A stretch of DNA of 48,103 nucleotides, taken from NCBI GenBank assembly GCA_016874795.1, contig VGTG01000024.1, positions 1 through 48,103 on the forward strand, given 5' to 3'. This DNA comes from Deltaproteobacteria bacterium. Its GTDB lineage: Bacteria; Desulfobacterota; Binatia; UBA12015. Under the pieces are notes generated by a model. The model had not been told where the DNA came from, made no database searches, and was given only the letters and a program-made list of their open reading frames with translations. This document shows, one piece after another, positions 2,783-15,481 of this stretch. Made by a program: the position numbers and the translations under genes. Each line of letters starts with the position of its first letter. Position 1 is the stretch's first letter.

Positions 2783-3220
2783 GTGAGCAGCGAGCAGCAC
2801 TGGGAGATCGACCCGGAGTCGATCCTGAGCCAGCGATTCGATGACGAGGTGGTGGCGATCAACCTGAAGGTCGGCGTGTACTACAGCCTGCGCGGGGCGG
2901 CCGCCGTCGTCTGGTCGGCGCTCGAGGCCCGTGCGGATCGGCGCGGCGTGCTCGGCGCGATCCAGGCGAGGTACGAGGGCGACGAGCAGCAGCATGCGCC
3001 CGAGGTCGACCGGTTCCTGGCCGAGCTTTCGTCGGAGGGGCTGATCACGCCGCGACCCGGCGCTGGAGCGGCACCGGTCCCGGATTCCGAGAACGCCGGG
3101 CGCATTGCGTTCGTCGCTCCCGTGCTCGAGAAGTTCAGCGACATGCAGGATCTCCTCCTGCTCGATCCGATCCACGACGTCGACGAGGACGGCCTTCCCT
3201 CCGGACGCAGCGCCGACTGA
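2783..3220 (+). CDS. PqqD-family (RRE-like) protein with conserved-looking C-terminal tail
   Basis: A GTG start at 2783 sits behind a strong ribosome binding site (aaggaggagg, 2768-2777), giving 145 aa. Residues about 14-90 have the PqqD fold pattern: SQRFDDEVVAINLKVGVYYSLRG, then VVWSALE, then a helical wing ending in FLAELSSEGLI. PqqD domains bind leader peptides of ribosomally made peptides and hand them to modifying enzymes. Unusually, a low-complexity linker (91-105) leads to a tail (about 106-138). The tail carries F110-x-x-P113-x-L115, then DMQ (120-122), four leucines and DPIHDVDE (128-135). Its F-x-x-P-x-L start resembles the Y-x-x-P-x-L core of lasso-type leader peptides, so the protein may carry its own substrate-like segment. 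The kinase gene begins 3 bp after the stop, so the two are surely co-transcribed. Confidence 0.85.
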   Translation: MSSEQHWEIDPESILSQRFDDEVVAINLKVGVYYSLRGAAAVVWSALEARADRRGVLGAIQARYEGDEQQHAPEVDRFLAELSSEGLITPRPGAGAAPVPDSENAGRIAFVAPVLEKFSDMQDLLLLDPIHDVDEDGLPSGRSAD

Positions 3221-3223
3221 AGC

Positions 3224-4315
3224 GTGACCGCAGGGAGCCCAGCGCCGGCGACGCTCGCGCCCTCCGCCGAAGAGCTGGTCCGCGCCCTCGCGGTCGCCGA
3301 CGAAGCTCTGGCCGAAGCAGGGCGATCCTGCGGCGAAGCAAGGCACCGTCTGGAGGTCTCCGGCGAGTCGATCGATCTCGTCTTCGCGGGCGAGCGCCTC
3401 GCCGAAGGCGTCGTCCCGAGCTTCGCGCACAAGGAGCGATCGTCGAACGGCGGTGCGCCCGCGCTCACGATCCAGCTATGCGACGCGGCGACGAGCGGAC
3501 GCGCGATCCCGCTGCCGCCGTGCCTCGAGGAGGCGTCCCTTCGTCGCGCCGAGTTCCCGACCTACCGCAGCCGTCGGATCGAGGCGCTCTACGACTGGGA
3601 CCGCCGCGTCCTCCACATGCTCGATCGCGAGCTTCGCCGCGCGATCTACTGGACCGAGGACGCGGCTGCCGTGCCGCTCTGGGAGCACGCGGGCTCGCTG
3701 CGGCAGATCCTCGTGTGGTGGCTTCGCGACGGACCGCTCCAGCTTCTGCACGCCGGTGCGGTCGGGCGCGAGGACGGCGGCGTCCTGCTGGTCGGGCGGA
3801 GCGGCTCGGGGAAATCGACCTCGACCGCGGCGTGCGTCGCCTCGGGGCTCCGCATCGTCGGCGACGACACGGTACTCGCGCGCGCGGATCCGTTCCCCGT
3901 CGCGGAAAGCCTCTACGGGAGCGTCAAGCTCACGCCGGACGGGCTCGAGCGCTTCCCGGCGCTGGGTGCACGCGCGGCGAACGAAGGCCGCGACGCGGAC
4001 GAGAAGGCGATCGTCTACCTGAGCGAAGCTCTCCCGGGAAAGCTCGTCGAAGCGCTTCCGCTGCGCGCTCTTCTGATCCCGAAGATCGTCGCGCGCGCGG
4101 AAGCGCGCCTCTTGCCCGCTCGACCGGCGCAGGGCCTCCTCGCGCTCGCGCCGAGCACTCTCTTCCAGGCGAACGGCGCGCACCGCGGCGCGTTCCGCGT
4201 GCTCGCGCAGATCGTCGAGAAGCTTCCGGCGTACGTCCTCGAGGTCGGGACGGATGCGACGCAGATCCCGCGCGTGATCGAGGCGCTGCTCGACGGCGAG
4301 GTGCCGCGTGGCTGA
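3224..4315 (+). CDS. HprK-related serine kinase (HPr-rel-A type)
   Basis: A 363-residue protein with a GTG start at 3224, three bases after the PqqD gene. The C-terminal half holds an HPr-kinase-like P-loop: GRSGSGKS at about 190-197, preceded by LLHAGAVG, and a VGDDTVLA acidic motif at about 214-221. The N-terminal about 110 residues are less conserved and include IRRAEFPTYRSRRIEAL-like text typical of 'HprK-related kinase A' rather than true HPr kinase. No HPr/PTS gene is near. Homologous kinases in lasso-peptide clusters phosphorylate the precursor peptide, which suggests a peptide or protein substrate here, possibly the PqqD tail. That last point is inference. It overlaps the next gene by 8 bp. 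Confidence 0.85.
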   Translation: MTAGSPAPATLAPSAEELVRALAVADEALAEAGRSCGEARHRLEVSGESIDLVFAGERLAEGVVPSFAHKERSSNGGAPALTIQLCDAATSGRAIPLPPCLEEASLRRAEFPTYRSRRIEALYDWDRRVLHMLDRELRRAIYWTEDAAAVPLWEHAGSLRQILVWWLRDGPLQLLHAGAVGREDGGVLLVGRSGSGKSTSTAACVASGLRIVGDDTVLARADPFPVAESLYGSVKLTPDGLERFPALGARAANEGRDADEKAIVYLSEALPGKLVEALPLRALLIPKIVARAEARLLPARPAQGLLALAPSTLFQANGAHRGAFRVLAQIVEKLPAYVLEVGTDATQIPRVIEALLDGEVPRG

Positions 4316-5060
4316 AGGCGTCGCTCTCGGCTCGCCGACTCTGCCGGGCGTCTCCGTCGTCGTCCCGGCGTACCAGGCAGCGGCGACGCTCGGCGCGGCT
4401 CTCGAGAGCATCCTCGCGCAGGAGCGGGGCGCGGACGAGATCCTCGTCGTCGACGACGGCTCCACGGACGGATCGAGCGACGTCGCGGCGCGGTTCGAGG
4501 GCGTGACCGTCCTCCGGCAGCCGAACCAGGGCGACGCGGCCGCGCGGAACGCCGGCGTCCGCGTGGCGCGCGGAGCTTTTCTCGCGTTCCTCGACGCGGA
4601 CGACGTATGGATGCCGGAGAAGATCCGCGTGCAGCTCGGCTTCCTCGAGGCGCATCCCGAGGCGGACGCGGTCCTCGCCCACCACCGCGAGGTCCTCGCG
4701 CCGGGTGCGGTGCCGCCGCCGGGGTTCCGCCGCGAGCTCCTCGAAGGAGCCCATCCGGGACGTCTCCTGGGAACGCTCGTCGCTCGCCGCCGTGCGTTCG
4801 AGCGCGTCGGGCTGCTCGATCCCTCGTATCGCTCGGGCAGCGACAGCGATTGGTTCTTTCGCGCGAGCGACGCGCGCCTCGTGATGCCGATGCTTCCCGA
4901 CGTCCTCCTGGAGCGGCGCGTGCGCTCCGACAGCCTGACGGCTGGCGCCGCGGTCCGGAACGTCCACGCCGAGCTCCTGCGCGCCGCGCCCGCTTCGCTG
5001 CGCCGCAAGACCGTGGCGAGCGCCGGGCAGGGATCCGGTACGGACGGCACGGGCGCGTGA
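4308..5060 (+). CDS. Family 2 glycosyltransferase
   Basis: A 250-residue GT-A protein with a GTG start at 4308, overlapping the kinase stop. It opens with VSVVVPAYQAAATLGAAL, then EILVVDDGSTDGS (nucleotide-binding Asp), NQGDAAARNAG, and the DADD metal motif (FLDADDVW). The acceptor part contains GSDSDWFFRA, matching the ED/DxD-W position of GT2 enzymes. No membrane segment is visible, so it is cytoplasmic and transfers a sugar from a nucleotide donor. Sequence similarity to the two GT domains of the next gene suggests local duplication. The next gene starts at the GTGA overlap, implying translational coupling. Confidence 0.87.
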   Translation: MAEGVALGSPTLPGVSVVVPAYQAAATLGAALESILAQERGADEILVVDDGSTDGSSDVAARFEGVTVLRQPNQGDAAARNAGVRVARGAFLAFLDADDVWMPEKIRVQLGFLEAHPEADAVLAHHREVLAPGAVPPPGFRRELLEGAHPGRLLGTLVARRRAFERVGLLDPSYRSGSDSDWFFRASDARLVMPMLPDVLLERRVRSDSLTAGAAVRNVHAELLRAAPASLRRKTVASAGQGSGTDGTGA

Positions 5061-6406
5061 ACGCCTCCCGAGCGCTCACCGTCAGCGTGATCGTCCCGGT
5101 GTTCAACGGCGCGGACTACCTCGCGGAGGCGCTCGCGAACATCGCGGCGCAGGATCGCCCGCCGGACGAGGTCGTCGTGATCGACGACGGCTCGACCGAC
5201 GCCTCCGCCGAGATTGCGCGGAGCGCTCCGGGAGTGCGCGTCGTCTCGCAGGCGAACCAGGGGCACGGCGGCGCGCGCAACGCGGGGATCGCGGCCACGT
5301 CCGGAGACGTGATCGCGTTCCTCGATCACGACGACCGCTGGACGCTCGACAAGCTGCGCGTGCAGGTCGGCCACCTCGAGGATCACCCGGAGATCGGTGT
5401 CGTCCTCGCGCGTCAACGCATGCTGCTCGAGGCCGGATTCGAGCGCCCCGCCTGGATGGCGAAGCGTGCTCTCGACGAGCCCGAGGCCGCGCCGATCCCT
5501 TCGGCGCTCGTCGCACGGCGCGCCGTCTTCGACGGGGTCGGTGGCTTCGATCCGACGTTTCGCATGGCGTGCGACACGGACTGGCTCTTCCGCGCGCGCG
5601 ACGCCGGTGTCTCGATCGCCTGGGTGCCGGACGTGCTCGTGCTGCGCCGCGTGCACCGCGGCAACATGAGCAACGCGACCGCCGCCGGGAAGCAGGAGTT
5701 CCTGCGCGTGCTGCACGGGTCCGTCCGGCGGAAGGCGCGCCCACGAGAGACCTCACCGCGCGTCAGCGTCGTGATCCCCGCGTTCAACGCGGAGCGCTTT
5801 CTCGGCGCGGCGATCGAGAGCGCGCTCGCGCAGTCTCCAGCCCCGCTCGAGGTCCTCGTCGTCGACGACGGCTCGACCGACGGGACGGCCGCGGTCGCGC
5901 GATCGCACGACGTGCGCTACGCGCACCAGGAGAACGCCGGTGTCGCCGCCGCGGCGAACCTCGGCGCGTCTCTTGCGCACGGCGATTTCCTGGCGTTCGT
6001 CGACGCGGACGACGTGTGGCTTCCGGGGAAGCTCGCGCGGCAGCTCGCGCGGCTCGAAGCGGAGCCGGGGCTCGAGGCGGTCTTCGGCCGCGTGCGCGAG
6101 GTGGACCTGCGCGCGCCCTCCGGCGCTCCGGCGCGCGAGGAAGCGTTCGTCGCGCGTTTGACGATGCTCATCCGCCGCGACGCTTTCGGGCGCGTCGGGC
6201 CGTTCGATCCGCGTTTCCGGATCGGGGAGTTCGTCGAGTGGTTCGGGCGCGCGGAGGAGAAGGGGCTTCGTCACGCGACTCTACCGGACGTCGTTGCCGA
6301 GCGCAGAATTCACGGAGCCAACATGGGCATCGTCGATCGCGCTCGGCGCGGCGAGTATTTGCTCGCGCTGAAATCCGTTCTCGACCGTCGTCGGCGCGTC
6401 TCCTGA
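5057..6406 (+). CDS. Bifunctional protein with two GT2 glycosyltransferase domains
   Basis: A 449-residue protein starting at GTG 5057 (GTGA overlap with the previous stop). Domain 1 (about 1-225) has VSVIVPVFNGADYL, VVVIDDGSTDAS, NQGHGGARNAG, FLDHDDRW and MACDTDWLFRA. Domain 2 (about 233-449) has VSVVIPAFNAERFL, VLVVDDGSTDGT, FVDADDVW and GEFVEWFGRA. Domain 1 has DHDD where domain 2 and the neighbour have DADD, so donor or acceptor preference may differ. Both keep the key acidic residues. Three related GT2 domains in 2.1 kb suggest assembly of a short oligosaccharide on a shared acceptor. The protein is soluble and cytoplasmic. Confidence 0.88.
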   Translation: MNASRALTVSVIVPVFNGADYLAEALANIAAQDRPPDEVVVIDDGSTDASAEIARSAPGVRVVSQANQGHGGARNAGIAATSGDVIAFLDHDDRWTLDKLRVQVGHLEDHPEIGVVLARQRMLLEAGFERPAWMAKRALDEPEAAPIPSALVARRAVFDGVGGFDPTFRMACDTDWLFRARDAGVSIAWVPDVLVLRRVHRGNMSNATAAGKQEFLRVLHGSVRRKARPRETSPRVSVVIPAFNAERFLGAAIESALAQSPAPLEVLVVDDGSTDGTAAVARSHDVRYAHQENAGVAAAANLGASLAHGDFLAFVDADDVWLPGKLARQLARLEAEPGLEAVFGRVREVDLRAPSGAPAREEAFVARLTMLIRRDAFGRVGPFDPRFRIGEFVEWFGRAEEKGLRHATLPDVVAERRIHGANMGIVDRARRGEYLLALKSVLDRRRRVS

Positions 6407-6423
6407 GACTTCGAAGTCGAGCG

Positions 6424-7940
6424 ATGCCGCTTCGCGAGAACCGCTGCCGTCCGAGCCCGCGGCACGAGCTCATCCTGCGAGCGGCGCTCCTGGCGGGGGA
6501 GCCCACGCGTCGAGCGTACGAGGAGTGGCGTGCGCAGATCGACTTCCAGCAGATCGACCTCGGCACGCAGCCCCTCCTGCCGCTCGTCGCGCACAACCTT
6601 TAGCTCGACGCTTCGGACGCTCTGACGCCGCGCGTGAAGGCGGTGTACCGCTACGCGTGGCTGAAGAACCAGGTGCTCGCGGAGGGGACCGTGGCCCTTC
6701 TCGACGCGTTCGCCGCGGCCGGCATCGCGACGATGCTGCTGAAGGGAGCTGCGCTTCTTCCGTACTACGACGACGACTTCGGCCGCCGTCCGATGGACGA
6801 CTTCGACGTCCTCGTTCCCGCCGATCGCGCGAGCGAGGCGATCGACGTCCTCGTCTCGGCGGGCCTCCGTCCGAGCTTCCGTACGCCGCCCGAGCAGGTG
6901 AAGGAGCTCTACCTGCACCGCGCCTCCGGCTGGGGCTTCGACGACGGGCGCGGGCTCGAGATCGACCTCCACTGGCACATGCTCTACGCTTCGGTCACTC
7001 TCCGCGCCGACGACGACTTCTGGTCGGCTGCACGCGCGACCGAGTTTCGACGGAGGCCGACGCTCGTGCCGCATCCGAGCGATCTTCTGCTGAACGTCTG
7101 CGCGCACGGCTCCTACTGGAACCCGGTCCCGCCGATCCGCTGGGTGGCGGACGCGATGATGCTCCTCCGCCGGCTCGGATCGAGCTTCGACTGGGACCGG
7201 CTCGTCTCGCAGACCGTGAAGCATCGAATTCGCCCGCGATCCGGGATTGCCTCCGGTATCTGCGCGAGCACTTCGAAGCACCGGTGCCGGCCGAGGTCCT
7301 CCGCGCGCTGCGTCCTTCGCGGACGCCGCTCTTCGAGCGGGTCGAGTATCGAGCGCTGACGGTCGCCCCCACGGAGCGGACCTCGGCTCAGCGCGCCGCG
7401 CACGACTACGGCCGCTACCTCCGGCGCACGTTTCCGCCCGGACGGCGGATCGGGCCGTCCGTCCCGATCGAGTACCTGCGGCAGCTCTGGCAGCTTCCAC
7501 ACGCGTGGCAGGTGCCGGTGCAAGCGGCGTACTCCGCCCTCGGCCGGCCGGCGAAGCTCCGGCCGGTCGTCGCACCTCTCCTGCGACGCGGCGCGGACCT
7601 TGCGCGCGAAGCGCCCCGCTACCGGCTGGGAGACGAGCTGACGTTTGCGGCCGGCGGGAACGCGCGGCCGTACGAGAGCCTCGGCTGGTCGCGACCGGAG
7701 GAGACCGGGACGTGGACCACCGCGCGCGAAGCACGCGTGCGGCTTCCGCTGAAGTCGCCGCCGACCGCGCCGTCCGGCTTCGGGAGCGCGGCTTGCTCGG
7801 GACTCGCCATTGCGGTCCCACCGGTTCGTCGATGCGAGCGGGAGAATCAAGCGTTCCGGCGAGGGGCCGCCAGTCCGCGTCCGTCCGAAGGCTCTTCCGA
7901 CCGGCCGGGGCGCACGTTCTGCTCGAGCCCGGGCAGGCGC
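6424..7940 (+). pseudogene. Nucleotidyltransferase (NTP_transf_5-like), broken by in-frame stop and frameshift(s)
   Basis: ATG 6424 opens MPLRENRC... with LILRAALLAGEPTRRAYEEW, the usual N-terminus of this uncharacterised nucleotidyltransferase family. The same frame hits TAG at 6601-6603 after LLPLVAHNL and resumes at once with LDASDALTPRV and VYRYAWLKNQ. The core follows: MLLKGAALLPYY, then RPMDDFDVLVP (the metal-binding acidic pair) and LEIDLHWHM. Near 7228 the frame shifts by one lost base, after TVKHRI; family-like sequence continues as AIRDCLRYLREHFEAPVPAEV and later NARPYESLGWSRPEETGTW, a C-terminal beta-rich domain. Beyond about 7790 no frame reads convincingly, so the end is approximate. 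With the PqqD and HprK-like genes it completes an HPr-rel-A-type set. A GTG or CTG restart near 6634 could still make the catalytic core. Confidence 0.75.
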
Positions 7941-7948
7941 GCCGTACC

Positions 7949-9595
7949 TCAGGCGCGGGCTTCGCCGCCGCGGACTTCCTTCTTGATGCGCTGGATGTGG
8001 CCGCGGCCGAGGCCCTTCACCTCGCAGCCGAGCTCGAAGTAGCGGCGGATCTGGTCGTCGCCGAGGATTCCGAAGCAGTCGATCACCGCGAGCGGGCCGC
8101 CCGCCATCTTCACGACCTCTTCCGGCGTGAGCTTCAGGTAGGGCTCGTGCGGGACCGCAAGAACGAGCGCCTCGACGCCGTCGAGGGCCTTCGCGAGATC
8201 CTGCTCGACGCGGAGCTCCGTCAGGTGCTTCTGGTTCCGGAAGAAGCGCGCGAGCGAATGCCCCGGCGACGGGTAGGTGTCCTGCTGCTCGAATTCGAAC
8301 CAGTGCTCGACGTACGGGTCGTGCACGCGGATGTCGGCGCCCATCTCCGTCAGACGGCGGACGACGACCTCCGATCCGGAGTAACGCGTGTCGCCGACGT
8401 CCTGGCGATAGCTCGCGCCGCAGATCAGCACCTCGGCGCTCGCGATGTAGCGTCCCATGTTGCGGAGCGCGTCGCGCGTCAGCGTCGCGACGTGCAGCCC
8501 GCGTGTGTCGTTGATGTCGATGGCGGTGGTGCTCATCTTGAACACCTCGTCGCCGTCGTCGAACCCGAGGATGTGCTTGTACGCCCAGTAGCCGAGGCCG
8601 CCGTCCTTCGGGAGGCAGTAGCCGCCGATGCCCGGGCCCGGGAAGATGATGTTGCTGTGCGTCGGACGGACCTTGATCGCGCCGATCACTTTCACGAGGT
8701 CGACGCCGTTCCGCTCGCAGAAGAGGCTCCACTCGTTCAGGAACGCGAGCGTCGTCGCCCGGTACGAGTTCTCGACGATCTTCGCGGTCTCCGACTCGAT
8801 CGGACGGTCCATCACGGTCAGCGGGAACTTCTTCGTGTTGAGGACCTCGGTCAGGAACTTGACGACGCGCGTCCGCGCCGTCTCGTCGCAGCCGCTGCAG
8901 ACGCGCCAGAAGTCGCGGATGCTCGCGACGTACTCGCGTCCCGGCATCACGCGCTCGTAGCTGTGCGCGAGGAGCGGCACCGCGTCGATCCCACGGCGCG
9001 CGAATGCCTTCTGCAGGATCGGCCACGCGACGAACTCCGTCGTGCCCGGCGCGACCGTCGTCTCGATCAGCGTCAAGCAGTTCGGGCCGACGCGGTCACC
9101 GATCGTCCGCATCGTCGCCTCGAGGGCGGCCATCTCGACCTCGCCGGAGCGCATGTGGCCGAGATCGTTCTTCGAGTAGTCGCACTGCACGTCGACGACG
9201 ACGCAGTCGGCGAGCTTGAGACAGTCGCTGTTGTAGGTCGCGATGAGCGTCTTCTTCTGAAGGACGCATCGCTCGATCATCGGGTCGACCTCGGGGTCCT
9301 CCGCCTTCACCGGAGAGATCCCGCGGTTCAGCATCGGGATCTTCCAGTAGCTGCGCGTGCTCGGTCTCTGGCACCCGATGACGAACTTGCTCGGGCGGCC
9401 GCTCTCGTCCGTGGTGTCGGCGATGATCGCGGCCATGACCGCGCCGACGAAGCCGACGCCCATGACGACGACGATCTCCTTCCCCTCCTTGCGGGCGGCT
9501 TCGACCAGCTTCTCGATGCGCTGGTACTCGGCGGCGTACTCTCCGTCGGACGGCAGAGGGAAAGACTCTCCTGCTGGGTTGATCGACACTTCCAC
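7949..9595 (-). CDS. Nucleotide-sugar dehydrogenase (UDP-glucose/GDP-mannose dehydrogenase family)
   Basis: 548 aa from a GTG start at 9595, chosen because aggaaggaga lies just upstream; the frame is open further but lacks a better site. An N-terminal extension of about 40 residues precedes the NAD-binding motif GVGFVG (46-51). The family signatures are IETTVAPGTT (about 177-186), a central domain with SETAKIVENSYRA, and the catalytic cysteine in GPGIGGYCLPKD (Cys about 327). The C-terminal domain has CGASYRQDVGDTRYSGS. It oxidises a nucleotide hexose at C6 to a uronate, supplying activated sugar acid. At 548 aa it is about 100 residues longer than usual. Transcribed towards the glycosyltransferases, it probably provides one of their donors; the exact sugar is not determined. 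Confidence 0.87.
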   Translation of the reverse strand: MEVSINPAGESFPLPSDGEYAAEYQRIEKLVEAARKEGKEIVVVMGVGFVGAVMAAIIADTTDESGRPSKFVIGCQRPSTRSYWKIPMLNRGISPVKAEDPEVDPMIERCVLQKKTLIATYNSDCLKLADCVVVDVQCDYSKNDLGHMRSGEVEMAALEATMRTIGDRVGPNCLTLIETTVAPGTTEFVAWPILQKAFARRGIDAVPLLAHSYERVMPGREYVASIRDFWRVCSGCDETARTRVVKFLTEVLNTKKFPLTVMDRPIESETAKIVENSYRATTLAFLNEWSLFCERNGVDLVKVIGAIKVRPTHSNIIFPGPGIGGYCLPKDGGLGYWAYKHILGFDDGDEVFKMSTTAIDINDTRGLHVATLTRDALRNMGRYIASAEVLICGASYRQDVGDTRYSGSEVVVRRLTEMGADIRVHDPYVEHWFEFEQQDTYPSPGHSLARFFRNQKHLTELRVEQDLAKALDGVEALVLAVPHEPYLKLTPEEVVKMAGGPLAVIDCFGILGDDQIRRYFELGCEVKGLGRGHIQRIKKEVRGGEARA

Positions 9596-12482: not shown

Positions 12483-13483
12483 CTGCTTCCTGCGGTCCGA
12501 TGCACCTCGTTCTCGAGCGGCTCGCCTCGTTCGAGGCGCTCGAGGTTCCGGAAGAAGATCGCCGACTGCCGCCCGACGTTGCCGGCCGAGGGCGACGAGT
12601 CGTGTGGCGACACGACCACGTTCGGCAGCTCCCAGAGCGGCGAATCCGGCGGCAAGGGCTCGACCTCGAACACGTCGAGATAGGCGCCCGCAAGCTTTCC
12701 CAGGCGCAAGGCTTCGATCAGAGCCGCCTGGTCGACGATGCCGCCGCGCGCGACGTTGATCAGGTGCGCTCCGCGCGGAAGGAGCGATAGGCGATCGCGA
12801 TCGATCCACCCGATCGTCTCTTCGGTGAGCGGACAGGCGAGCACCAGCCAATCGGTCTCCGGCAGGAGGGCGGTGAGCTCCGCCGGTGCGCGTACGTCAT
12901 CGACCGGATCCTCGGGCGAGCGCGCGCTCCGGCGGACGCCGACGACACGAAGCCCGATCGCGCGCGCGAGCCGCGCGATCTCCCGGCCGATCGCGCCGAG
13001 ACCGACGACGACCATCGTCTGCCCGGCGAGGTCGGGTGGCGGCGAGCGCAGGTTCGTCGGCTCCCACGCATGTCGACGCTGCGCGTCCCACCACTGCGTC
13101 ATGCCGCGCGCGAGGGCGAGCATTCCTCCGATCGCGCTCTGTGCGATCGGTGCGGCGCTCGCGCCCGAGGACGTCGTCAAGCGCACGCCGCGCTCGAGCA
13201 AGCGGGCGAAGATCGGGGCGTCGGTTCCCGCGTTGGGCAGGTGCATCCAGCGAAGGTTCGGAGCGCGCATCGCGGCGCCGAAGAACGAGCGCGTCAGGAG
13301 AGGGTCCGCGGTGAAGTCGCCCGGGAAGAACGCGATGTCGACGCCGCCGAGCGCTTCCTCCAACAAATGCTCTCCCGGAGCGACCTCGAAGACGTCCCAG
13401 GTGCGGCCGATCGCTCGCCGTCGCCGCGCGAGCTCGGCGCGGAGGTCGGCGGCGAAGCGGCTCGTCGTGAGGAGGCTCGGCAT
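12479..13483 (-). CDS. D-2-hydroxyacid dehydrogenase (NAD-dependent)
   Basis: 334 aa from ATG 13483. The nucleotide domain shows VVVGLGAIGREIA (about 158-170), and the catalytic triad is present: Arg246 in NVARGG, Glu275 in DVFEVEPLP and His294 in SPHDSS. It reduces 2-keto acids to D-2-hydroxy acids or the reverse; members act on glyoxylate, hydroxypyruvate or phosphoglycerate, and the specificity cannot be read here. The length is normal and no regulatory ACT domain is present, so it is not a standard SerA. It is followed by the DUF4331 remnant in the same direction. Confidence 0.88.
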   Translation of the reverse strand: MPSLLTTSRFAADLRAELARRRRAIGRTWDVFEVAPGEHLLEEALGGVDIAFFPGDFTADPLLTRSFFGAAMRAPNLRWMHLPNAGTDAPIFARLLERGVRLTTSSGASAAPIAQSAIGGMLALARGMTQWWDAQRRHAWEPTNLRSPPPDLAGQTMVVVGLGAIGREIARLARAIGLRVVGVRRSARSPEDPVDDVRAPAELTALLPETDWLVLACPLTEETIGWIDRDRLSLLPRGAHLINVARGGIVDQAALIEALRLGKLAGAYLDVFEVEPLPPDSPLWELPNVVVSPHDSSPSAGNVGRQSAIFFRNLERLERGEPLENEVHRTAGSS

Positions 13484-13569
13484 CCTCCCCGCGGGTTCGC
13501 AGACGGCTCGGGGCCGCGCAAACGGCGTCCGCCTCTCGACAGCGGCCGTTCGGGGCGCGAAGGTGCGCC

Positions 13570-13719
13570 ATGAGCAAGGGTGTGGTGCTCCTCGCGATCG
13601 TGACGCTCGTCCTCACGCTCGCGTTCTTCCTGCTGGTGCGGCCGCTCGTCACCGCGGTGCCGCGCTCGGTGCCCCCCTCGGCGCCGCCTAGCGCAGCGGG
13701 AACACCATCGGGATCGTGA
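13570..13719 (+). CDS. Possible small single-pass membrane protein
   Basis: A 49-residue frame, ATG 13570 to TGA 13717-13719, with a weak site (gaagg) 6 bp upstream. MSKGVVLLAIVTLVLTLAFFLLV is one strong hydrophobic helix (about 5-27), followed by a Pro/Ser-rich tail. It overlaps the end of the convergent transporter gene by 32 bp, which lowers confidence. I do not recognise the family. Confidence 0.35.
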   Translation: MSKGVVLLAIVTLVLTLAFFLLVRPLVTAVPRSVPPSAPPSAAGTPSGS

Positions 13720-15481
13720 CCATCGCGATCGCCCAGCAGATCAGGTCCATCGGAATGCCGATCCGGAGGAAATCGGTGAACCGGTAGCCGCCCGGCCCGT
13801 ACACCATCATGTGTGTCTGGTAGCCGAGAGGCGTCGCGAACCCGAGCGATCCGGCGACGGTGACCGCGGCGACGAACGGCATGTAGCCGATGCCGAGATC
13901 CGCCGCGGTGTTGAGCGCGATCGGGAAGAGGAGGGACACCGCGGCGCTGTGCGAGATCAGCTCCGTCAAGAGGAGCGTCCCGCCGTAGATCGCGACGAGG
14001 CTCCACATCGGATCGCCGCCGGCCGCGGACGTCAGCGTCTTCGCGACGACCGCCGCGACGCCGGACTTCTCGACCGCCGCGCCGAGCGCGAACGCCGCCG
14101 CGACGGAGAGGATCACCTTCCACTCGACGCTCCGCCGCGCCATCGTGCTCGTGCAGCAGCGCGTGAGGATCATCGCGCCGGAGGCGAGCATCGCCGCCTT
14201 CAGCATGCCGAGGTCCGTGAAGCTCGCGGCGAGGATCATCCCGAGCAGGATGACCAGCGCCAGGTACGCCTTCTCGTGGCGGACCGGCGCGGAGTCCTCG
14301 ATGCGGCTCACGAGGTAGAAGTGGTGCGAGTTCCGCTGCTGCTCCGCGAACGACGGATCGGCCTCGACGAGCAGCGTGTCGCCGGTCTGCAAGACGATGT
14401 CGCCGATCTTCTTCTTCACGCGCTCGCCGCTTCGCGACACCGCGATCACGACCGCGTTGTAGACGGAGCGGAAGCGCCCGTCGCGGATCGTCTGCCCGAC
14501 GAGCGGGCAGTGGTGCGACACGACCGCTTCGACGAGGCAGCGGCGGGAGCGCGGTGCTTCGAGCTTGAAGATCTGGTTCGTCGCCGGCTGCAAGCCGCGG
14601 ATCTTCTGCAGGTCGACCACGGCCTCGATCACGCCGATGAACACGAGGCGGTCGCCGGCTTGCAGCACCTCGTGGGGCGAAACGGCCGGGATGAGGTCGC
14701 CGTCCCGGTCGATCTCGGCGAGGTACGTGTTCGGGAGCTGCCGCAGGCCGGCGGCCTCGATGGTCTTCCCGGCGAGCGGGCTCTTCGGCTCGACCAGCAT
14801 CTCGATCGAGTACTCGCGCGGGTCGCCGAACTGCTCCATCGCCGGACGGCGGTCCGGCAGGAGCCAGCGATTGAACGCGACGACGAAGAGCACGCCGGCG
14901 ATCGTGATCGGGATGCCCACCCAGGTGAGCTCGAACATGTGCATGCCGTGCCCCTTCGCGGAGATCAGCATGCCGTTCACGAGGAGGTTCGTCGCCGTCG
15001 AGATCATCGTCACGGTGCCGCTCAGCACGGCCGCGTAGCTGAGCGGGATCATCAGCTTGGAGACGGCGATGCGGTACTGCTTCGCCCAGTCGTTCACCGC
15101 GGGAAGGAACATCGCGACGACCGGCGTGTTGTTCATGAACGCGCTGACGAAGGTGACCGGGAACATCATCTTCATCAGAGCGCTCGTGACCGACTTCGGC
15201 CGGCTCAAGAACTTCTCCGTGATCATCGTGTTCGCGCCGGTGCCTTCGAGCCCGGCGACGACGACGTAGAGGACGGCGATGGTGACGATGCCCTCGTTCG
15301 CGAGCCCGGCGAGGGCTTCCTTCGCGTTCAGGACACCCGCGACGAGGAGGACCGTCACGGCGGCGGTCAGGACGACGTCGGTCGCGACGTCACGAACGAT
15401 CAGGATGATGAAGATGGCGCAGATGACGGCGATGGTGAACCAGCCGTCCCATCCGAGAGCCGCCCAGGTTGTAGCGTCCAT
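13688..15481 (-). CDS. SLC13/DASS-type transporter with two central RCK_C (TrkA-C) domains
   Basis: 597 aa from ATG 15481 behind gaggag. About five N-terminal membrane helices include FMNNTPVVAMFLP, the family's Asn-Thr re-entrant motif. The cytoplasmic middle (about 215-390) has two TrkA-C-like modules (PLAGKTIEAAGLRQLPNTYL ... LQAGDRLVFIG, then PLVGQTIRDGRF ... LQTGDTLLVEA). The second membrane half has LTELISHSAAVSLLFP, the matching second motif. Related proteins move anions such as sulfate or dicarboxylates, often with sodium; the RCK_C modules probably sense a small ligand. The substrate is unknown. The gene is preceded by 101 bp and a secreted-protein gene in the same orientation lies upstream. 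Confidence 0.9.
   Translation of the reverse strand: MDATTWAALGWDGWFTIAVICAIFIILIVRDVATDVVLTAAVTVLLVAGVLNAKEALAGLANEGIVTIAVLYVVVAGLEGTGANTMITEKFLSRPKSVTSALMKMMFPVTFVSAFMNNTPVVAMFLPAVNDWAKQYRIAVSKLMIPLSYAAVLSGTVTMISTATNLLVNGMLISAKGHGMHMFELTWVGIPITIAGVLFVVAFNRWLLPDRRPAMEQFGDPREYSIEMLVEPKSPLAGKTIEAAGLRQLPNTYLAEIDRDGDLIPAVSPHEVLQAGDRLVFIGVIEAVVDLQKIRGLQPATNQIFKLEAPRSRRCLVEAVVSHHCPLVGQTIRDGRFRSVYNAVVIAVSRSGERVKKKIGDIVLQTGDTLLVEADPSFAEQQRNSHHFYLVSRIEDSAPVRHEKAYLALVILLGMILAASFTDLGMLKAAMLASGAMILTRCCTSTMARRSVEWKVILSVAAAFALGAAVEKSGVAAVVAKTLTSAAGGDPMWSLVAIYGGTLLLTELISHSAAVSLLFPIALNTAADLGIGYMPFVAAVTVAGSLGFATPLGYQTHMMVYGPGGYRFTDFLRIGIPMDLICWAIAMVTIPMVFPLR

Follow-up and report, generated by a model that had tools for sequence, protein, structure and literature searches.

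We describe a block of five genes on a bacterial contig of 48,103 nucleotides (the window, that is, the whole stretch of DNA analysed), which is one of 360 contigs in a genome of 6.27 Mb. The block runs in one direction from position 2783 and encodes a PqqD-family protein, an HprK-like kinase, two family 2 glycosyltransferase (GT2) proteins and an NTP_transf_5 nucleotidyltransferase. Our main finding is a conserved C-terminal tail on the PqqD-family protein (3107-3199), absent from an earlier, sequence-only reading of this DNA. The PqqD domain itself is modelled as a recognition element (RRE) of the kind that guides the modification of ribosomally synthesized and post-translationally modified peptides (RiPPs). 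We propose, with a probability of roughly 0.4, that the block directs modification on a peptide scaffold, that the RRE protein itself bears the sequence it recognises, and that the constant segment of the tail serves as acceptor or carrier. The features on which the argument draws are as follows.

2783..3220, + strand: PqqD-family RRE protein, 145 aa (PF05402, 5.3e-11)
2783-3058, + strand: RRE domain of the PqqD protein (residues 1-92), followed by a variable linker and the conserved tail
3107..3139, + strand: leader-like part of the tail, AFVAPVLEKFS (residues 109-119; consensus FxxPxLxKYT)
3140..3199, + strand: core-like constant part of the tail, DMQDLLLLDPIHDVDEDGLP (residues 120-139; consensus DMQDLLLLDPIHEVDExGWP)
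3224..4315, + strand: HprK-like kinase, 363 aa (alignments A1 and A7; AlphaFold2 model)
4308..5060, + strand: GT2 glycosyltransferase, single domain (PF00535, 6.3e-33)
5057..6406, + strand: GT2 glycosyltransferase, two tandem domains (PF00535 in two stretches, 5.1e-68)
6424..7556, + strand: NTP_transf_5 nucleotidyltransferase-superfamily gene, broken (PF14907, 114 bits, 9.1e-33, in the open reading frame (ORF) 6634-7359)

The gene content, order, single direction and tight junctions given by the sequence-only reading were exact. A 3-bp gap separates the PqqD and kinase genes (3220 to 3224), the kinase gene overlaps the first glycosyltransferase gene by 8 bp (4308-4315), and the two glycosyltransferase genes overlap by 4 bp (5057-5060). 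Of the five domain assignments, those of PqqD, the three GT2 domains and NTP_transf_5 hold in Pfam, whereas the kinase falls below its Pfam cut-off (Hpr_kinase_C, 22.9 bits against 33.3) and is clear by structure. Two parts of that description did not stand: the nucleotidyltransferase gene, taken as an ordinary member, is broken in the assembly by a stop and a frameshift, and the assignment of the locus to the HPr-rel-A type fails on the scores given below.

The PqqD-family protein, its tail and the kinase

The tail, FxxPxL-x4-DMQDLLLLDPIHEVDExGWP, lies at the C terminus of the PqqD protein and is better conserved than the RRE domain. All 11 of the PqqDs aligned from loci with a linked kinase have it, among them that of the window. 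The weighted information content averages 2.08 bits per column in the RRE and 0.84 in the linker, rising to 2.38 in the FxxPxL part and 3.77 in the constant part. The conservation of residues 120-128 is partly by construction, as they correspond to the nine-residue pattern used to search for the tail, but residues 129-139, which lie outside that pattern, still carry 3.52 bits. In the leader-like part, Pro113 is present in 99% and residue 110 is aromatic (F 0.85, Y 0.13, W 0.03). Residue 138 is tryptophan in 97% and leucine in the window's PqqD. The FxxPxL motif falls in the same class as the [Y/W]xxPx[L/V] leaders of PMC13381572.

A second tail type occurs within the class, with a similar front part and DPPxPG in place of DPIHEV (loci L036, L037, L040, L135 and L136, and less clearly L038). 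It reads ALDPPxPG vs LLDPIHEV, and L036, L037, L038 and L040 adjoin the same kinase and GT2 genes. A shared front with two tail types is what would be expected for a leader plus a variable core.

Our AlphaFold2 model of the PqqD protein, built from 81 sequences, has a mean predicted local distance difference test score (pLDDT) of 84.7, with an average of 95 for residues 111-120, 72-80 for the linker and 50-59 for residues 121-145. The tail is predicted to form a strand at 115-118 and a helix at 121-127. The best PDB match of the model is TbiB1 with its leader (VIA Z 13.3, root-mean-square deviation (rmsd) 2.1 over 88 residues), followed by TfuB1 (Z 10.7, rmsd 1.9, 85 residues). By sequence, the protein also matches both of these as well as 9x90 and 9x8z, which are PbaB1 and LppB (PMC13381572). 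As modelled, the PqqD domain is a winged helix-turn-helix RRE fold of the lasso B1 type. We infer that strand 115-118 occupies the RRE cleft of its own chain, where a leader extends the sheet in PMC13381572.

The kinase model (3224-4312) has a pLDDT of 92.3. It aligns with phosphoenolpyruvate (PEP) carboxykinase over residues 15-363 (Z 18.1, rmsd 4.3, 308 aligned) and with HPr kinase/phosphatase over residues 171-363, the C-terminal half (Z 14.5, rmsd 3.1, 135 aligned). The likeness to PEP carboxykinase includes the N-terminal half, beyond the reach of the HPr kinase matches. His176, the P-loop at 191-199 (3794-3820) and Asp214-Asp215 (3863-3868) show little or no variation among 36 sequences. 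Together with Lys197, His176 and the two aspartates give the protein the His-Lys-Asp-Asp catalytic set needed by lasso kinases (PMC9266682).

Recurrence of the block and the search for a precursor

The block is more than a chance occurrence, because nine further genomes of the class also have it and because the kinase is present at 77 of 81 loci that were found through PqqD alone. At E 1e-3 the kinase gives a single match in the window's genome and matches in 45 of 78 genomes (the window's included), mostly weak P-loop matches. Below 1e-25 there are eleven matches in nine other genomes (G004, G006, G010, G016, G020, G031, G051 twice, G070 twice and G077). At all ten loci that are uncut beside the kinase, PqqD and GT2 genes accompany it; NTP_transf_5 is found at six of the ten, with a weak seventh match in L040 (25% identity). 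The block of L037 was read by tblastn. At one cut locus (L041, in G006), NTP_transf_5 adjoins the kinase and the tailed PqqD lies on another contig.

Searching with a PqqD profile, we found matches at 1e-12 in 45 of 148 class genomes. Full-length tailed proteins (120-190 bits) occur at 15 loci in 12 of the 148, the window's included; two of the 12, G162 and G163, were outside the kinase search. Untailed PqqDs score 50-83 bits, and their match stops at residue 128 or earlier. A plasmid collection gave one good tailed match, in Crinalium epipsammum, where the order is PqqD, NTP_transf_5, HPr kinase, FkbM methyltransferase and GT2; four other records matched at E 0.5 only. A scan of GTDB contigs with the nine-residue tail pattern returned 163 stretches, of which 152 are PqqD relatives, whereas the same scan with the kinase alone gave 118 pattern matches and 0 confirmed relatives.

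For the survey of neighbours we took the best 80 of the 152 GTDB relatives plus Crinalium, 81 loci in all; the counts are minima because many contigs stop inside the flank, and the best 80 include genomes already met (L045 and L084 are G070, L106 is G031 and L116 is G004). HprK is present at 77 of the 81, GT2 at 76 and NTP_transf_5 at 61, and all three stand with the RRE protein at 58, contig-end loci counted. An MsbA-like ATP-binding cassette (ABC) exporter is found at 32 or 39 loci, depending on the method, and GT4 at 19. HprK is fused to GT2 at 11 loci, and the median number of GT2 domains per locus is two. Three of the four loci that lack HprK (L067, L109, L121 and L124) end within 2.6 kb of PqqD; L109 is kinase-free over 9.5 kb. 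The sequence-only reading had allowed that the grouping might not occur beyond this genome, but PqqD, HprK-like kinase and GT2, often with NTP_transf_5, recur as a block in many phyla.

On a tree of the 81 PqqD proteins, the sixteen phylum labels change 34 times, against a minimum of 15 and a shuffled mean of 51.8, and agreement between the family and the phyla is therefore partial; the tree is weakly supported, nine rows are unlabelled, and bins can be mislabelled. One such bin is L116 (G004, contig C3), which is labelled Klebsiella pneumoniae but falls in the family of the window. Pairwise, the distances between PqqD, HprK and nucleotidyltransferase proteins correlate (Mantel r 0.64 for 76 loci, 0.64 for 59 and 0.72 for 56; 0 of 2000 permutations in each case), in agreement with the genes being inherited together.

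We looked for a separate precursor in two ways. A profile of the tail was run on 47 genomes: that of the window plus 46 selected because they have a tailed PqqD. All 53 matches lie in open frames of at least 141 codons, with one match per genome in 43 of the 47, and none lies in a short frame; stand-alone tail peptides were rejected for this sample. The extra matches are on contig C70 of G114, contigs C140 and C163 of G116 and contig C33 of G102, one of them in an open frame of 655 codons. Small ORFs lying no more than 6 kb from the 81 PqqDs gave 238 YxxPxL-like matches among 4642, against 272 in shuffled sequences; the scan covered this short motif rather than the full motif of the linear polyphosphorylated peptide (LPP) system, YxxPxVLxHQxIxFETxxS. 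As the short motif gave fewer matches than in the shuffles, a separate precursor nearby was provisionally set aside. The most widely shared small ORFs near these PqqDs occur at four loci only and resemble shadows of other genes.

Possible roles of the tail

In the reading we favour, the FxxPxL part would lie in the cleft of its own RRE, as a lasso or LPP leader does, and the constant segment would thereby be presented to the kinase, the nucleotidyltransferase and the GT2 enzymes. A phosphate or sugar chain would be built on that segment, by analogy with PsmK and PsmN of pseudomycoidin through phosphorylation and then hexose transfer, and the finished product would then be exported. The tail is supported as acceptor by its leader-then-core order, by the lack of any other precursor in the two scans above, by the enzyme types and by the second tail type. 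The sequence-only reading had inferred a substrate bound by PqqD; a conserved, non-lasso block stands, but the substrate now looks fused to PqqD itself. Tentatively, the loci under the sixteen phylum labels may form a RiPP-like class whose precursor is part of the RRE protein, with the tail as a ribosomal carrier for a phosphorylated, glycosylated structure (a cofactor, a signal or a cell-surface primer). Borosin precursors are fused C-terminally to their modifying N-methyltransferase. Here, too, the substrate peptide would be a C-terminal extension, although of an RRE.

The closest described system is LPP, from the lpp cluster of Paenibacillus alginolyticus (Nat Commun 2026, PMC13381572). It shares with the block a discrete RRE, an HprK-like kinase, an uncharacterised NTP transferase, an MsbA-like exporter, a YxxPx[L/V] recognition motif, polysaccharide surroundings and the lack of a cyclase. 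However, LPP has a separate precursor, LppA, with acceptor Ser3, and a SipW-like signal peptidase, LppS, whereas in the block the motif is fused to the RRE; the block also includes GT2 enzymes and spans many phyla, while LPP is predominantly from Bacillota. The LPP kinase phosphorylates Ser3 and deletion of the nucleotidyltransferase gene causes no detectable change (PMC13381572). We did not file the block under LPP: the TIGR02228 signal peptidase matches in 20 of the 47 genomes (5 above cut-off), in none of them on a contig with a tailed PqqD. The lasso clusters of paeninodin and pseudomycoidin (PadeK, PsmK, PsmN; PMC9266682) likewise share a B1-type RRE, a His-Lys-Asp-Asp kinase and a nucleotidyltransferase homologue. 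In pseudomycoidin, PsmK phosphorylates the C-terminal serine and PsmN then adds a hexose to it (PMC9266682). The block differs from these clusters in that a B2 leader peptidase, an AsnB-type cyclase and a precursor gene were not found, and in that the tail has no invariant serine.

Our searches of the open-access PMC literature brought up no description of a PqqD with such a tail alongside kinase and GT2. The suggestion of a largely undescribed use needs tempering, as a sibling system, LPP, was published in 2026. What is new among RRE-guided pathways is an RRE that apparently carries its own recognition sequence. RiPP genome mining seeks a precursor gene near the RRE, and none was found here, perhaps because the tail of the RRE protein is itself the precursor; such clusters would then be missed or dismissed. 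The constancy of the tail across phyla points to a product of general role rather than an antibiotic. The arrangement also makes it testable whether an HprK-like kinase acts on a peptide that is joined to the domain recognising it, and what NTP_transf_5 transfers.

Several points weigh against the tail as acceptor. It contains no invariant Ser, Thr or Tyr, and residue 119 is Thr or Ser in just 82% (weighted). A conserved serine is the acceptor for the described HprK-like RiPP kinases (PMC9266682, PMC13381572). The constant segment barely varies between phyla and could equally be a docking helix. Most RiPP cores vary, unlike this segment. That strand 115-118 pairs within the cleft is inferred, and RRE-leader complexes may be among what AlphaFold2 has learned. 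Core release is unexplained, because a leader peptidase was not found. Genomes with a stand-alone tail only lie outside the 47-genome sample, and 11 of the 163 pattern matches are unconfirmed. The Mantel test is unable to separate co-function from shared descent, and the window's own copy has a broken nucleotidyltransferase and leucine at 138.

It is quite possible, if doubtful on balance, that the tail is instead a docking arm, which fills the RRE cleft while the constant segment recruits the kinase, nucleotidyltransferase and GT2 enzymes to a saccharide or lipid-linked glycan (capsule, exopolysaccharide). The kinase and nucleotidyltransferase might then put phosphate or sugar-phosphate on that glycan. 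A constant, leucine-rich and acidic segment without an invariant hydroxyl residue suits such an arm, as do the two GT2 domains of the median locus, the HprK-GT2 fusions, GT4 at 19 and the MsbA-like exporter at 39 of the 81 loci. Related LPP clusters were also noticed within capsular polysaccharide loci (PMC13381572). The two tail types with a common front, on the other hand, resemble leader and core. RRE domains, moreover, bind peptides that are themselves substrates. Because the tail has no invariant hydroxyl residue, the segment is constant and no peptidase was found, we hold the tail as substrate and the tail as docking arm nearly level.

We consider it unlikely that the RRE works for another peptide or protein whose gene lies elsewhere, with the tail as an autoinhibitory pseudo-leader that the partner displaces. 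Discrete RREs do serve separate precursors in lasso and LPP systems (PMC13381572), and a neighbourhood search would miss a remote gene. Near the loci, however, there is neither a widely shared small ORF nor an excess of leader motifs, and an inhibitory arm would not be expected to surpass the RRE in conservation across 20 residues.

It is very improbable that the block is what remains of a lasso or LPP cluster, or a tailoring arm of one, after the loss of cyclase and protease; the sequence-only reading had also separated the block from lasso pathways. In favour of such a remnant, the kinase and nucleotidyltransferase families are those of lasso and LPP clusters, and the window's nucleotidyltransferase is broken. 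In addition, L040 (G051) has a divergent asparagine-synthetase-like gene at 12568-14373, downstream of the block (18.3 bits, cut-off 21). In 2 of the 47 genomes (G084 and G113) the leader peptidase PF13471 is found no more than 15 kb from the tail (within ~10.5 kb), but L051 and L098, the loci concerned, each have a further PqqD in surroundings of its own. Of the window's genome and nine class genomes, none of the 10 has PF13471 close to the block (the one in G020 is 275 kb off on the contig), and in these 10 the AsnB-type synthetase PF00733 has no match at E 1e-3 on block contigs; many contigs are short, and linkage is visible only within contigs. With neither family linked to the block within these limits, we rejected filing it as a lasso cluster. 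That the LPP-type signal peptidase shares no contig with the block, and that the tail and its enzymes form a stable set over many phyla, also argues against a remnant.

Two further loci, L042 (G003) and L043 (G038), carry a leader peptidase and no kinases but distant ones, and we group them with lasso-type clusters. The first, in the window's genus (contig C318, 8360-14619), holds nucleotidyltransferase-like, PqqD, leader peptidase and asparagine-synthetase cyclase genes and, judged by eye, a radical-SAM-like gene. The second (contig C14, 8998-13920) is a hybrid, a row of PqqD-like (by eye), HprK-like, two GT2, lasso-type leader peptidase and NTP_transf_5-like genes in which no cyclase was seen.

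Least credible is regulation through HPr and the phosphotransferase system (PTS), with the kinase acting on HPr, or identity with NCBI's HPr-rel-A system, which pairs an HprK-related kinase with a PqqD-family protein: the kinase matches both models, but weakly, at 23.2 bits for TIGR00679 (HPr kinase/phosphatase, cut-off 240) and 42.5 bits for HprK_rel_A (TIGR04352, cut-off 200; three relatives score 32.6, 34.2 and 39.6), and the best NCBIfam matches of the PqqD are lasso models, below cut-off. The sequence-only reading, which had used the HPr-rel-A label, had also considered that relatives might place the kinase beside HPr. HPr occurs once in each of 14 genomes and is apart from the kinase in all of them, on another contig in 12, ~11 kb away in G020 and ~2.5 Mb away in G084; a second, weaker kinase match lies within 2 kb of HPr in G004, G006, G010 and G020.

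The nucleotidyltransferase gene and its surroundings

The NTP_transf_5 frame from 6424 meets a TAG stop at 6601-6603; homology resumes in the same frame and is then frameshifted between 7230 and 7239. By tblastn, the intact homologue from L031 tracks the gene across 6445-7556, with homology ending near 7556. The NTP_transf_5 profile has no match among PDB sequences. The window's copy may be decaying or mis-assembled. Assembly error is favoured by an SGNH/GDSL-hydrolase-like gene on the same contig (140-1602), which by eye also seems to change frame, near base 880. Decay is favoured by the window's PqqD, which has a long end branch (1.46; the median is 0.61) and the W138L change.

The GC content is ~70% in the DNA read, and, as the window is the entire contig, the view upstream is bounded by base 1. 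Past the broken nucleotidyltransferase gene, at 7560-7950, a reading with GDELTFAAGGNARPYESLGWSRPEETGTWT resembles a further degraded gene or domain, for which Pfam is blank. A UDP-glucose/GDP-mannose dehydrogenase gene on the minus strand (7949-9595) converges on the block.

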